Shown here piece after piece: positions 24,099-29,572 of a stretch of 45,956 nucleotides of DNA. Source of the DNA: Acidimicrobiales bacterium (GTDB taxonomy: Bacteria > Actinomycetota > Acidimicrobiia > Acidimicrobiales > DASWMK01); NCBI GenBank assembly GCA_036399815.1, contig DASWMK010000094.1, positions 1 through 45,956 on the forward strand. Direction: 5' to 3'. The number at the start of each line of letters is the position of its first letter. The stretch's first letter is position 1. Below the pieces are notes generated by a model. It did no database searches, was not told the origin of the DNA, and saw only the letters and a program-made list of their open reading frames with translations. The position numbers and the translations under genes are program-made.

Positions 24099-24374
24099 AT
24101 GGCGGAAGCGAGCTCCAGCTCATCCACGCCCGCAGCGGCAACCGGGAACCCGGCGGCGCACGCGGTCCTGTTCGCCAGCGAGGCCATCGCGCCGGGCCTG
24201 AGCCACGTCCTGCGGGGCGACCTCGCCAACGGCGCCGGCTACGGCCTCGCCGGCCTGTTCGCCACCCTCGTGTTCGGCACGCCGGGCCGGGTGCTGGTCG
24301 GCGCGGCGTCGTTCGTGAAGTCGGCGTCCGGCACCGACCTCCTCAGCCTCGTCCGGCCACCCCGCCAGGGCTGA
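24099..24374 (+). CDS. Small membrane-associated protein, unknown
   Basis: 91 residues; ATG 24099 follows GGAGGTG (24089-24095), a strong ribosome site. A Ser/Ala-rich start precedes HAVLFASEAIAPGLSHVLRG and DLANGAGYGLAGLFATLVFG, which look amphipathic to membrane-inserting. The ending is KSASGTDLLSLVRPP. No sure family, though the EAIAPGLSHVLRGDLANGA phrase recalls DUF6072-like small proteins. First of three same-strand genes leading into the HMA-ABC exporter. Confidence 0.6.
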   Translation: MAEASSSSSTPAAATGNPAAHAVLFASEAIAPGLSHVLRGDLANGAGYGLAGLFATLVFGTPGRVLVGAASFVKSASGTDLLSLVRPPRQG

Positions 24375-24391
24375 GGGGTCCGCTCCGCCGC

Positions 24392-24760
24392 ATGCGCAGA
24401 ACCGGAGCGTTCCTCGCCGGGGTCTCCGTCGGCGCCGCGCTCGTCACCAACTGGCGCTCGATCGCCAAGGGCACGGTGAAGGCGGGGATCCGCGGAGGGA
24501 CGACCCTCCGCGCCAGCGCGGCCCGCGCGGCGGAGAACCTGGCCGACGTCGTCCAGGAGGCGACCTGGGAGATGGGCGCGGCCCAGGAGGCGGCGCCCAC
24601 GGCGGCCGGGGCCGGCACGGCCGGGACGACGCCGCCCGCGCCCGCCGCAGGCGAGGCCGCCACCGCCCCGTCCCGGGCGGCCGACGCCGAGCCCACCACC
24701 AATGGCGACGGCGCCGCGACGGGCGCCGCCGTACCGCACGAGTCGGCCAGCCTGACCTGA
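24392..24760 (+). CDS. DUF5132-like small membrane-anchored protein
   Basis: 122 residues. It starts RRTGAFLAGVSVGAALVTNW, a short N-terminal anchor, then SIAKGTVKAGIRGG and SAARAAENLADVVQEATWEM, a helical region. The second half is an Ala/Thr/Pro-rich tail with no fold. The AKGTVKAG plus ENLADVVQEA pattern resembles DUF5132 proteins that accompany HMA-domain transporters. That link fits the next gene, which opens with an HMA-like domain. Gap to the upstream gene is 17 nt. Confidence 0.5.
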   Translation: MRRTGAFLAGVSVGAALVTNWRSIAKGTVKAGIRGGTTLRASAARAAENLADVVQEATWEMGAAQEAAPTAAGAGTAGTTPPAPAAGEAATAPSRAADAEPTTNGDGAATGAAVPHESASLT

Positions 24761-24803
24761 CCGGTGGTCGCGCTGGCCGGCCGGCGCCGACTCGCCTGAC
24801 CCC

Positions 24804-26813
24804 GTGACCTCGAGCGTCCGCTCGTTCATCCCCGGGCGCGCCCGCCTGGACGTGCCCTCCATCCGCGGCGACCGGGCCATGGCGGCCGCCGCCGAGGAGG
24901 CCGTCGCCGCGACCGCCGGCGTCACGGCCGCGACGGCGAGCGCCGTCACCGGCACCGTCCTCGTGCAGTACGACCCGGCGCTCGACTGGGGCGCGCTCCA
25001 CGCCGAGATCGACGCTCGGCTCGACGCCCTCGACCCGGCGACCGCGCGATTCCACCCGGCGGCGCGCGGGCCGCTCCAGCGGGTCCTGCGCCGCTCCCTC
25101 CCCGACCAGGGCAGCCGAGCCGGCCCGGTGCTGCTGACCGTCGGCGCCCACTCGCTGAACATGCTCCAGAACCTGGTCGTCGTCACCGGGGCGAGCGTGG
25201 TCAACGGCGACACCCCGACCGTCCTGCGCTGGCTCGGCGTCACCGACGTGCGGGCCCAGCTCACCGCCATCACCACCACCGGCCTGGCCCTGACCACCGT
25301 CGAGGGGCTGGTCCAGCACCGCCGCCGCCGGGCCTGGCAGGAGGTCGCCCGAGGCGCCGAGGAGCGCCTGCGCTCCGACGTGTTCGCCCGCCTGGAGGCC
25401 CAGGACCTCGCCTTCTTCCACGCCGACGGCACCGGCTCGCTGCTCAACGTGCTCACTGCGGACGTCGACAGCATCGGCGCCCTCGTGGAGTCGACCGACG
25501 TCCTCCTCGAGACCGCGCTCACCGCGCTGGTCGGCGGCAGCGTGCTGCTGCGCACCTCGCCGACCCTGGCCCTCGTCGCCGGCACGGCCGGGCCGCTGGT
25601 CGCCTACTCGATCCGCCGCTTCGGGCCCCGCACCAGGGACGCGTTCATCCGGGCGTCGAGGCCGTCGTCGCGGCTCACCCAGGCCCTCGAGAACATCCTC
25701 TCGGGCATCGTCGAGGTGAAGAGCTTCACCGCCGAGGAGCAGGAGGCGAGGCGGGTGGCCAGGCTCAGCCGGTCGGTGGCCGAGTCCGGGCTGGAGGCCG
25801 GCTCGGCGGCCACCCTCCAGGCGACGTTCACCGAGAAGGTGCTCTATCTCGCCGGGGCGACGGCCCTCGGCTACGGCGCCCGCCTCGCCGTGTCGGGCCG
25901 GGTCGCCCGCCCGACGTTCACGAGGACGATGTACTGGATCCCGGCGATCGTCGGAGCGGTCGGCAGCACCGTGCAGCTGTCCCGCACCTACTACCGGGCG
26001 ACGGCCGGCGTCCGCCAGATCAACCGCGTGCTCGACGCCGTCCCCGCCATCCACAGCGGCCCGGCTGCGCTCGACCCCGCCGCCGTCCGGGGCGAGCTCC
26101 AGCTGGAGGGCGTGTCCTTCGCCTACGAGCCGCCCCGGCGCGTGCTCCGGGACGTCTCGCTGCACGTGCCCGGCGGTACCAGCCTCGGCGTCGTGGGCCC
26201 CAACGGCTCGGGCAAGAGCACCCTGCTCCGCCTGCTGCTGCGCTTCTACGAGCCCGACGCCGGCCGCATCCTCCTCGACGGCCACGACGTCCGCGACCTG
26301 CGCCTCGCCGACCTGCGGGCCTCGGTCTCGCTCGTCAGCCAGGACGTCTACGTCTTCGACGACACCCTCGCCCACAACGTCCGCTACGGCCGGCCCGACG
26401 CCGGCGACGACGAGGTGGTCGCCGCGCTCGCCGCGGCCGGCGCCTCGTCGCTCCTCGACGAGCTCCCCGACGGGCTCGCCACCCGCCTCGGCGAGCGCGG
26501 CCACCGCCTGTCCGGCGGCCAGCGCCAGCGGGTCGCCCTGGCCCGCGCCCTGCTGAAGGGCGCGCCGGTCCTCGCCCTCGACGAGGCGACCTCCCACCTC
26601 GACTACGAGGCCGAAGCGGCGTTCAAGGAGACGCTGCGGACGACGGCGTCCGGGCGGACGGTCGTGCTCATCGCCCACCGCCTGTCGAGCGTTCGGGACC
26701 TCGACCAGATCGTCGTGCTCGACCGGGGCGAGATCCGCGAGCACGGGTCCCACGACGAGCTGCTCGACCAGCGCGGCCTCTACCACCGCCTCTGGCAGCT
26801 CCAGCGGCCCTGA
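24804..26813 (+). CDS. ABC exporter with N-terminal HMA-like domain
   Basis: 669 residues from GTG 24804. Residues 1 to about 75 form an HMA2-like ferredoxin-fold domain ([46 protein letters not shown]) with no CxxC metal motif. Then comes a six-helix ABC exporter membrane domain (about 100-405), including [20 protein letters not shown] and the coupling segment [13 protein letters not shown]. The ATPase domain follows: Walker [11 protein letters not shown]-loop [19 protein letters not shown], signature [16 protein letters not shown], Walker [14 protein letters not shown]-loop [12 protein letters not shown]. Likely a homodimer. The substrate is unknown; HMA domains normally sit on P-type ATPases, so the fusion is unusual. 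Converges with the P450 12 nt away. Confidence 0.85.
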
Positions 26814-26825
26814 CCCGACCGGCGC

Positions 26826-28025
26826 TCAGGCCTCCACCGGGAGCGACCGCAGGCCCCGCAGGATGAGGCTGGGCCGCCACGTCAGCTCCTCGGCGGGCAC
26901 GGCCAGGCGCAGCCGGGGGAGTCGGCGCACCAGCGTGCCGATCCCGATCTGGCACTCCATGCGGGCGAGGGCGGCCCCGATGCAGAAGTGGACGCCCCGG
27001 CCGAAGGCGACGTGCCGGTTGCCGGAGCGGCCCACGTCGAGCCGGTCGGGGTCGTCGAACACCGCCTCGTCCCGGTTGGCCGAGCTCAGCACCACCGTGA
27101 CGAGGTCGCCCTTCGCCACCCGGCAGCCGTCGAGGTCGACGTCCTCCACGGCGTGGCGGTGCAGGGTGGCCGCCGGGCACTCGTAGCGCAGCAGCTCCTC
27201 GACCGCCGGGCCGACGAGCGACGGGTCGGCCCGCAGGCGGGCCAGCTGGTCGGGGTGGCGGAGCAGGGCGACCACGCCGCTGCCGATCGTGCACGCCACC
27301 GACTCGTAGCCGTCCGCGAGCAGCAGCCACACCATGCCGACCAGCTCGTCGGGGGTCAGGTCGCTGCCCAGCAGGTCGCTCACGAGGCCGTCGTCGGGCC
27401 GAGCCCGCTTGGCCGCGAACACGCCGTGGAGGTAGTCGACGATCTCCTCGTTGGCCACCCGGGCCCGGCGCTCGACCTCCTCGGGCGGCATGGGGAAGTC
27501 CCCGTCGATGACCACCCGCGACCACTCGCGGAACAGGTCGCGGTCCTCGGCCGGCAGCCCGAGCATCTCGGCGACGACCACGATGGGCAGCGGGAAGGCG
27601 TACTCGGTCAGGAGGTCGACCGGCCCCCGGCCCTCGATGGCGGCGGCCAGCTCCTCGGCCAGGGCGGTGACGCGCGGCCGCAGCGCCTCGACGGCGGCCG
27701 GCGTGAACGCCCGCCGCACGGTCGCCCGCAGGCGGGTGTGCTCGGGCGGGTCGGTGGTGGTGAGCAGGCGGCCGAGGGGGACGTCGTGGCCGGGCGACCG
27801 GTGGCCGTCGACCGAGGCCGGGTCGCTGGCGAAGCGGTCGCTCGACAGCACGTCGACGACGTCCGCGTGCCGGGTGACGAGCCACGACCACCGCCCGTCG
27901 GGGAGCTCCACGCGGCACACCGGCGCCGCCGCCCGCAGCTCCCGGTAGATCGGGTACGGGTCGGCGTGGCCGTCGACGGTGAGGAGCGCGGCCGGGTCCG
28001 GTCGCCCGCTCGGAGAGCCATCCAA
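26826..28025 (-). CDS. Cytochrome P450
   Basis: 399 residues from TTG 28025, the only start that gives the usual actinobacterial P450 length; AGGCGG is 8 nt upstream. Seen: TTDPPEHTRLRATVRRAFTP (C-helix), I-helix LLLADGYESVA with Glu-Ser instead of the usual Glu/Asp-Thr pair, EELLRYE (ExxR), AFGRGVHFCIGAALARME (heme-Cys loop). A soluble class I enzyme that needs a ferredoxin not encoded here. It is divergent from the M29-like gene and peptide gene, and the promoters overlap, so it may modify that peptide, perhaps at its Tyr residues; inference. A stand-alone oxidation role is equally possible. Confidence 0.85.
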   Translation of the reverse strand: MDGSPSGRPDPAALLTVDGHADPYPIYRELRAAAPVCRVELPDGRWSWLVTRHADVVDVLSSDRFASDPASVDGHRSPGHDVPLGRLLTTTDPPEHTRLRATVRRAFTPAAVEALRPRVTALAEELAAAIEGRGPVDLLTEYAFPLPIVVVAEMLGLPAEDRDLFREWSRVVIDGDFPMPPEEVERRARVANEEIVDYLHGVFAAKRARPDDGLVSDLLGSDLTPDELVGMVWLLLADGYESVACTIGSGVVALLRHPDQLARLRADPSLVGPAVEELLRYECPAATLHRHAVEDVDLDGCRVAKGDLVTVVLSSANRDEAVFDDPDRLDVGRSGNRHVAFGRGVHFCIGAALARMECQIGIGTLVRRLPRLRLAVPAEELTWRPSLILRGLRSLPVEA

Positions 28026-28073
28026 GAGTCGAACCGCCTGTCTCGGGGCCGCTCGCCGGCGAGTGGCGAAGCC

Positions 28074-28102
28074 TTGCGCGGCCGTTCGGCCGAGGGTAGC
28101 GT
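28074..28102 (+). promoter_or_regulatory. Promoter for the M29-like/peptide genes, overlapping the P450 promoter
   Basis: TTGCGC (28074-28079), 17 nt, TAGCGT (28097-28102) on the plus strand. On the minus strand TACCCT occupies 28098-28093, a -10 for the P450 with a weak TTCGTG 17 nt upstream. The two -10 boxes share two bases, so the genes could not be transcribed from here at the same instant. The plus transcript would have a leader of about 215 nt. Confidence 0.45.
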
Positions 28103-28323
28103 CCCCGCCGGGGAACACGAAGAGCGCGAGGCCGCGTTCGCACGGTGTTTCTCGGATCGGCGGTTCCGGCGATGCGAGGACGGGCGCAACGAGTGGTGGC
28201 GGATCGACGGACAGGCACCCCGGCGACGGCGCCGGTCGGGCCGGGTCCGGACCCGATCCCCACGTGGGCGCGGCGGGACCGTCGTCTCCGATGCAGTCGC
28301 ACGGACGAGCAAAGGACGACGAC

Positions 28324-29301
28324 GTGGACGAGCACAGCTCGCTGAACGGCGGGACCGGCCTACGGGTCACGAGCATGGACAACCTCCGGCCGCTGGCCGG
28401 GGGCGAGGGCTTCACCGTCGTCACCGACGAGCCCCGCCTGGTCGACGAGCTGGCGCGCCACGGGCTCCCCGCGGTGCTCTGGGACCCCGACCTGCGCATG
28501 CCCGCCGGCTCCAACGTCGTCGTCGCCCTGTGCCACCGCATGGGCAGCGCCACCATCCGGTCGCAGTTCAGCGACTCCCGGGTGCTCGCCCTGCCCATCC
28601 ACAGCTTCGACGACAGCCTCGCCGGGATCATGTACACGGTGTCGCTGGTCTTCGCCACCGACTTCGTCGACACCACCAGACGCAACAACGAGTGGATCCG
28701 GCTGCTGCGCGACGAGCCCGACGGCGTCCTCGACTTCGCCGGCCCCGGCACCGACCTGCGCTGCACCCTCGGCGAGAACCTCCGCGTCGACACGTCCCTC
28801 GACCTCGAGATCGGGCCGGGGGAGTGGGTCAGCGTCGGCAACTACTGCGAGGTGTCGCTCACCCCGTCGTCGAGCACCGACTGGCACAGCTCGTTCGTGA
28901 TGGACGGCCACGTCGAGGCCGTCGGCGTGCTCGTGGCCGAGGACTCGAGGGCCGGGCAGGACGACACCGCCAAGGCGAGGATCGCCGCGGCGCGCGACCT
29001 GCAGGTCGAGATGGTCGAGCGGGGGCCGGTCCGCCTCGAGCTCGAGGACGGCCGCCTGCGCGCCGCCTACCTCGACGGGCGGGACGTCACCGCCGAGATC
29101 GCGGAGGCGACCAACCCGTCCTACGAGCTGCACGCCACCGAGCTGGGCCTCGGGACCAACCCCGGCATCGGCCCGCTCGTCGACTGGCGGTTCAACTCCC
29201 AGATCAACGAGGGCGTCGGGATGATCCACCTCGGCTTCGGCGAGGGCATCACCGGCGCCCACATGGACTTCGTGGTCGACGGCGTCTCGCTCGCCGGCTG
29301 A
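28324..29301 (+). CDS. M29-like (aminopeptidase T family) metallopeptidase homologue
   Basis: 325 residues from GTG 28324 (AAAGGA 7 nt upstream); ATG 28375 is a later option. The C-terminal half has the M29 metal-site pattern: VGNYCEVSLTP (position of NxPxGE, Glu kept), ELGLGTNPGI (Glu), INEGVGMIHLGFG (Glu and His), GAHMDFVV (HxD). All expected ligands are present. The N-terminal half is divergent and shorter than in true aminopeptidase T, which is about 370-410 residues. Known M29 members are broad metallo-aminopeptidases. Here it precedes a 46-codon peptide gene by 44 nt, so processing or binding of that peptide is a reasonable inference. Confidence 0.65.
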   Translation: MDEHSSLNGGTGLRVTSMDNLRPLAGGEGFTVVTDEPRLVDELARHGLPAVLWDPDLRMPAGSNVVVALCHRMGSATIRSQFSDSRVLALPIHSFDDSLAGIMYTVSLVFATDFVDTTRRNNEWIRLLRDEPDGVLDFAGPGTDLRCTLGENLRVDTSLDLEIGPGEWVSVGNYCEVSLTPSSSTDWHSSFVMDGHVEAVGVLVAEDSRAGQDDTAKARIAAARDLQVEMVERGPVRLELEDGRLRAAYLDGRDVTAEIAEATNPSYELHATELGLGTNPGIGPLVDWRFNSQINEGVGMIHLGFGEGITGAHMDFVVDGVSLAG

Positions 29302-29330
29302 GGTCCTCCGAGGTCTTCTCGACCACCGAA

Positions 29331-29338
29331 AGGAGGTG
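29331..29338 (+). promoter_or_regulatory. Strong ribosome site for the 46-residue peptide gene
   Basis: AGGAGGTG, a perfect anti-16S match within GAAAGGAGGTG, 7 nt before TTG 29346. It is the best Shine-Dalgarno in the window and implies high translation of a very short frame in spite of the TTG start. It also decides that start over the internal ATG 29358. Confidence 0.75.
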
Positions 29339-29345
29339 CAACACC

Positions 29346-29486
29346 TTGCGTAACGTCATGATCGCGGAGCGGTCCTGGACGTCCGACGACCGCGGCGGAG
29401 CCGAGAGCAAGTCGGCCGAGCGGGCGAAGGCGACCGACCCCGTGACCGCGTCCTTCCTCAGCTACAGCAACTACACCTCCGGCTGA
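29346..29486 (+). CDS. 46-residue peptide, candidate RiPP precursor
   Basis: TTG start fixed by the ribosome site. The product has a charged, leader-like N-terminal two thirds (RNVMIAERSWTSDDRGG, then SKSAERAKATDPV) with Trp11, and an abrupt uncharged aromatic/hydroxyl C-terminus, TASFLSYSNYTSG, with Tyr40 and Tyr43 spaced i, i+3. No Cys, no signal peptide, no membrane segment. A charged leader followed by a small core rich in Ser/Thr/Tyr, high expression signals, and a nearby P450 and M29-like enzyme together suggest a ribosomally made, modified peptide. It matches no family I know. It could also be a small regulatory protein. A strong hairpin follows. Confidence 0.6.
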   Translation: MRNVMIAERSWTSDDRGGAESKSAERAKATDPVTASFLSYSNYTSG

Positions 29487-29510
29487 TCACCTCGGTTCGG
29501 GGCTTCGACG

Positions 29511-29553
29511 CGAGGGGCAGCGCGGACCGGATCCCGGCCCGCGGTGCCCCTCG
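29511..29553 (+). terminator. Large hairpin after the peptide gene
   Basis: CGAGGGGCA (29511-29519) pairs perfectly with TGCCCCTCG (29545-29553). Inside, GCGG/CCGC and CCGG/CCGG continue the stem around a 3-nt loop with one mismatch. Begins 25 nt after the peptide stop. No T-run. Likely terminator or transcript stabiliser. Confidence 0.65.
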
Positions 29554-29572
29554 TCGTCGCGTCGGCGCCCGG

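Follow-up and report, generated by a model that had tools for sequence, protein, structure and literature searches.

In the biosynthesis of crocagin, a RiPP and bacterial peptide alkaloid, by Chondromyces crocatus, the precursor CgnA is bound by both CgnB and CgnE (PMC10070186). Binding between CgnA and CgnB is in the micromolar range. The fold of CgnB is nearest to that of the M29 aminopeptidases, and its dinuclear zinc site consists of Glu161, Glu252, Glu274, His280, His291, and Asp293, two of which are lost in CgnE; aminopeptidase activity was seen for neither protein (PMC10070186). The zinc site has been proposed to remove water (beta-elimination) from a beta-hydroxy-Tyr made by the dioxygenase CgnC (PMC10070186). 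In crocagin, a precursor-binding protein of this type works together with an oxidase, and CgnB alone is without effect on its own precursor. Single-copy homologues of CgnB/CgnE retain the metal site, and their loci were already mined for precursors with RiPPER in 2023 (PMC10070186). CgnB-type proteins have nevertheless been characterized in one pathway only, and the role of the zinc site remains a proposal.

The locus studied here lies in a window of 45,956 nucleotides (the whole stretch of DNA that was analysed) and consists of the following features:

24099..24374, + strand: DUF6072 small protein (PF19549, E 1.4e-12; 4.8e-17 for its counterpart in the related contig L019)
24392..24760, + strand: small DUF5132-like protein (PF17195, E 2.4e-4, weak and under the cut-off)
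24804..26813, + strand: MsbA-type ABC exporter with an N-terminal HMA_2 domain, the candidate exporter, between the DUF6072 and CgnB-like genes
26829 to about 28025, − strand: cytochrome P450, CYP107-like (PF00067), involvement unproven
28324..29301, + strand: CgnB-family (crocagin) putative peptide-binding protein, 325 aa, assigned from phmmer, a profile, and the metal ligands
29329..29337, + strand: Shine-Dalgarno AAAGGAGGT, 8 nt ahead of the TTG of the peptide gene
29346..29486, + strand: probable precursor peptide gene, 46 aa, with the TTG start at 29346 and the stop ending at 29486, product MRNVMIAERSWTSDDRGGAESKSAERAKATDPVTASFLSYSNYTSG
29505..29560, + strand: strong G+C-rich hairpin 3' of the peptide gene, from an RNA fold

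It is a real, conserved CgnB-linked RiPP-type locus, new in detail and known in kind. As in crocagin (CgnA/CgnB/CgnC/CgnE; PMC10070186), a ligand-complete CgnB-family gene lies by a short gene for a precursor whose leader is charged and whose C-terminal region is aromatic. However, CgnB/CgnE occurs twice in crocagin, and the metal site of the second copy is broken, whereas a whole-genome search found one CgnB-like copy and no CgnE copy in the genome of the window. The crocagin precursor ends in Tyr-Trp, and the window precursor, which ends in SYSNYTSG, is unrelated to it in sequence; the two related peptides of L019 end in YQYARV and YNYARV. No homologue of CgnC, CgnD, or CgnL was recognized near the window locus, and a Pfam scan found no CgnC-type 2-oxoglutarate dioxygenase among the neighboring genes. 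Instead, a P450, DUF6072, and the HMA_2 ABC exporter are nearby. The single-copy loci of PMC10070186 are similar in that each has one copy, an intact metal site, and a putative precursor close by. In the text of that paper, such loci are placed in Actinobacteria, Cyanobacteria, and three classes of proteobacteria (PMC10070186); loci from Deinococcota and Bacillota are added here.

As to the partner protein, the original prediction had described an M29-type metallopeptidase homologue with all metal ligands, and had known of no peptide family with such a partner. A phmmer search of the PDB with the 325-aa protein gave two sequence matches that were counted, both approximately full length: 6zsv (E 4.9e-16, query 32-323) and 6zsu, which is CgnE (E 1.4e-8, query 10-322). 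We infer from PMC10070186 and from the ligand pattern that 6zsv is CgnB; its PDB title is merely "uncharacterized protein". A profile of six homologues recovered the same two chains, 6zsv at 2.3e-27 and 6zsu at 1.7e-9; up to E 10 there was no further match, and thus no M29 chain. The residues E176, E273, E296, H302, H313, and D315 correspond to all six zinc ligands of CgnB and are invariant in the six homologues. An AlphaFold model built from three sequences had a pLDDT of 45, too poor to use. By sequence, the partner belongs over its full length to the CgnB/CgnE family known from crocagin biosynthesis. The six ligands and the M29 ancestry of the original description hold, but the family is that of CgnB/CgnE, and a family with an M29-like partner had already been described (PMC10070186).

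This assignment also bears on whether the protein might truly be a peptidase of the M29 type, trimming or degrading a peptide that acts unmodified, for example as a signal. Every metal ligand is kept, the fold of CgnB is nearest to the M29 aminopeptidases, and the window protein has its metal ligand set and fold ancestry in common with peptidase M29 (AmpS, PepS, aminopeptidase T), according to PMC10070186. However, the sequence family is that of CgnB, neither CgnB nor CgnE showed aminopeptidase activity (PMC10070186), and the protein matched no Pfam family at E 0.1, peptidase M29 included, and no NCBIfam model. We consider a peptidase role very unlikely.

The gene that follows encodes a peptide with a leader-like part (MRNVMIAERSW...DPVT) and a core-like tail, ASFLSYSNYTSG, in which there are two Tyr. 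The perfect Shine-Dalgarno, TTG start, and large hairpin attributed to it were all confirmed: AAAGGAGGT occurs as a single exact copy across the 46-kb window, where shuffles expect 0.02, and the GC1/2/3 of the gene is 0.50/0.59/0.96. The hairpin 3' of the gene has a folding energy of −52.8 kcal/mol over 82 nt (29484-29565; z −4.0). It has no T-run and is likely to be the transcription end.

The closest relative is in G851, a genome of the same order. It is a single 4.9-kb contig, L019, which encodes a homologue 53% identical to the window CgnB-like protein; directly downstream of its gene lie two short genes in tandem, arranged and oriented as in the window. Their products are MRSVIVEERSWNANDSVPSGRADRRESPDPVTGALVSYQYARV and VRNIIIEDRSWIAELPGTTTAKDDRRLSTDPVSAALVTYNYARV, and each gene has one strong ribosome site (AAGGGAGGT and AAAAGGAGGT). 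The three peptides have in common MR(N/S)xxxx(E/D)RSW, DPV(T/S), and an (S/T)Y..Y tail, and both Tyr are kept in the L019 paralogues. The L019 peptides are 42% and 36% identical to the window peptide and align to it with scores of 80 and 78 against a shuffle mean of 20-21, corresponding to z values of 13-15 (13.4 and 14.1; 13.6 and 15.0 in a second comparison). The annotated peptide frame scored 82 and 79 against L019, compared with 29-56 for the other five frames. At the DNA level, the peptide genes of the window and L019 differ in length by whole codons and their substitutions are commonest at third positions; directly downstream of the peptide genes, no conservation was found between the two DNAs. 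In this one second genome, the frame is conserved rather than riddled with stops. Two further peptide matches, in G275 and G677 (E 0.007-0.009), lay inside a long frame or across a stop and were dropped.

A short frame with a TTG start and a strong hairpin behind it might be regarded as an ORF present by chance or as a structured leader RNA. This is scarcely credible in view of the protein-level conservation, the in-frame length changes, the excess of third-position substitutions, and the two paralogues. The sequence evidence indicates that the 46-residue frame is very probably a true small precursor-peptide gene, in agreement with the RiPP precursor that had been proposed. The locus also shows the arrangement by which a RiPP is recognized, a conserved short leader/core gene adjoining the gene of a modifying or peptide-binding protein.

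DUF6072 was found above the cut-off in only two of the 22 genomes searched (G000 and G851) and in one of 396 genomes of the phylum (G000). It lies about 4 kb from the CgnB-like gene in the window, where it is followed by the DUF5132-like gene and then the HMA_2-ABC gene in the interval, and about 0.4 kb from it in L019. Because DUF6072 is near the CgnB-like gene in both, the cluster is likely to extend from 24099 to 29486; this would include the ABC gene, for which L019 is too short a contig to serve as a comparison. A Caballeronia plasmid (L033) also carries a DUF6072 relative, and no gene of the CgnB type lies within 6 kb of it.

We suggest that the locus is probably a RiPP-type secreted peptide system, composed of a precursor, a CgnB-type zinc protein that binds the peptide or acts as a catalyst, and an exporter, and that it likely makes a modified peptide, as judged from its gene content. 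The zinc protein encoded directly upstream would bind the 46-aa precursor (29346-29486) at both the leader and the core, and the zinc site would take part in altering the likely modified region, which is the (S/T)-Y-(x1-2)-Y stretch at the C-terminus. The oxidation might come from the P450, or the zinc protein might act on Ser/Thr, which already bears a beta-hydroxyl. The product would then be exported by the HMA_2 ABC transporter.

The original prediction pointed out that P450s cross-link aromatic residues in small peptides such as cittilin and the biarylitides. In the P450-cross-linked RiPPs (biarylitides, cittilin, atropopeptides, and aminopyruvatide), as in the window, a P450 is found near a short gene with a two-Tyr core. 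On a cross-linking reading, as in biarylitides, cittilin, and aminopyruvatide, the enzyme would join the two Tyr of SYSNY, and the CgnB-like protein would merely present the peptide. The P450 is real: it carries the haem motif FGRGVHFCIG, it lies between the exporter and the CgnB-like gene, and it is divergent from the latter with about 300 bp between them. The Tyr of the cores are also suggestive: there are two in the window core, YQY and YNY occur in the L019 cores, and it is the two Tyr of a YLY motif that ApyO links (PMC13192836). However, a tblastn search of eight CgnB-like loci (seven intact and one decayed) gave no match to the P450, and no homologue was found at E 0.001 in G851, which is 89% complete, yet the L019 peptides keep both Tyr. 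The best PDB matches of the P450 are vitamin D hydroxylase and PikC, which are CYP107-type hydroxylases, and it scored 52 bits against the model of the RiPP P450 ApyO, compared with 198 bits for another family. In contrast to the P450-cross-linked RiPPs, it is the CgnB-like protein, and not the P450, that is conserved with the precursor. Because the P450 is not linked to the locus in the relatives, we set cross-linking aside as the core chemistry and consider this reading unlikely, and the defining role given to the P450 in the original prediction is not upheld. On these sequence comparisons, the P450 cannot be a general requirement of the peptide family. It may serve the window locus alone, as a tailoring or hydroxylating enzyme in place of the CgnC dioxygenase.

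More distant CgnB-like genes were also found. They are present on plasmids of Thermus thermophilus (pAA2-2c, L003) and Deinococcus sp. QL22 (L004), in Thalassobacillus (L013), Calidithermus (L014), and Scopulibacillus (L015, a partly deleted copy), and in two more actinobacterial genomes, G345 (L011) and G433 (L010). L013, L014, and L015 came from a scan with a four-row alignment; a single-protein scan of genome contigs for the CgnB-like protein and a search of viral contigs each gave nothing. The CgnB query also gave short, partial matches in G002, G494, and G552 (E 4e-4 to 5e-4), which we took as chance. Most of the distant CgnB-like genes have a short gene directly upstream, and ABC or MFS transporters are found near them. 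Precursor-like short genes adjoin the CgnB-like gene in L003, L004, L011, L013, and L014; the products of all five end in a CxC stretch, which the window peptide does not have, and in four of them, all but L013, the core contains (S/T)Y or YSY/YSW. The L003 and L014 peptides have a common leader and contain the stretches FSYSYSVSYSW and AYSYSVNYSW, respectively, and the L004 unit KF(S/T)YAPE occurs in three copies. In shuffle tests, several pairs of the distant precursors are related among themselves; compared with the window peptide, L011 reached a z of only 3.5 and L004 of 2.6, and the rest were not above shuffles. We therefore regard them as sister systems and not as homologous precursors.

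No oxidase is common to the CgnB-like loci, and in the stretches read of L003, L014, and L019 none adjoins the genes for the precursor and the CgnB-like protein. Since no oxidase is seen beside the genes there, a zinc protein acting on Ser/Thr would fit these three loci. By analogy with CgnB, the CgnB-like protein might even be the sole maturase, dehydrating the Ser/Thr before the core Tyr through its zinc site with no need of an oxidase. This would be consistent with the (S/T)-Y kept in the peptide tails of the window, L019, L004, L011, and L003 (YSY/YSW in L014), and with the beta-elimination role proposed for CgnB (PMC10070186). However, it is purely inferred, the L013 peptide lacks the (S/T)-Y motif, and CgnB alone is inert on its own precursor, for which reason we hold it to be quite unlikely. 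Less probable still would be a widespread RiPP group spanning Actinomycetota, Deinococcota, and Bacillota, with one zinc protein of the CgnB type as the maturase itself, performing direct beta-elimination and ring closure on a Ser/Thr-Tyr core, oxidase-free. The CgnB-like loci offer a minimal setting, in which a single CgnB-like protein accompanies one short precursor, the core is repeated in some cases, and no oxidase adjoins; the role of the zinc site is open to direct test in them.

Several of the distant short genes are worth mentioning individually. In L004, 5428-5724 is annotated as a hypothetical protein by the CgnB-like gene and resembles a multi-core RiPP precursor, with the repeats KFTYAPE/KFSYAPE/KFSYAPE and the end CPCGTF. 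In L011, 7341-7787 (G345) contains a duplicated leader-core block (SFSYSNWQHV, LFSYGNWVNG, and SFSYSNWQHV) and a CPC end, and genes for a CoaC-like flavoprotein, an AMP-ligase, an aldehyde dehydrogenase, a TPP enzyme, and a KAS III lie near it. In L010, 8477-8904 on the minus strand (G433) holds a pair of short paralogues, ..EFVDVTVSRTSDESAEAVWMEWR and ..EFVDINVSPTSDKSAEGVWPERY, directly upstream of the CgnB-like gene, and their sequence differs from that of the other distant peptides. The Scopulibacillus CgnB-like gene (L015:8776-9279) is without its middle part, adjoins an MFS gene, and looks like a decayed copy. The precursor-like genes L003:5659-5916 and L014:7004-7258 are 48% identical and precede CgnB-like and ABC genes. 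Such peptide genes are short enough for gene callers to miss, as in the case of the precursor-like gene of the Thermus plasmid (L003), which is missing from the gene table of that record.
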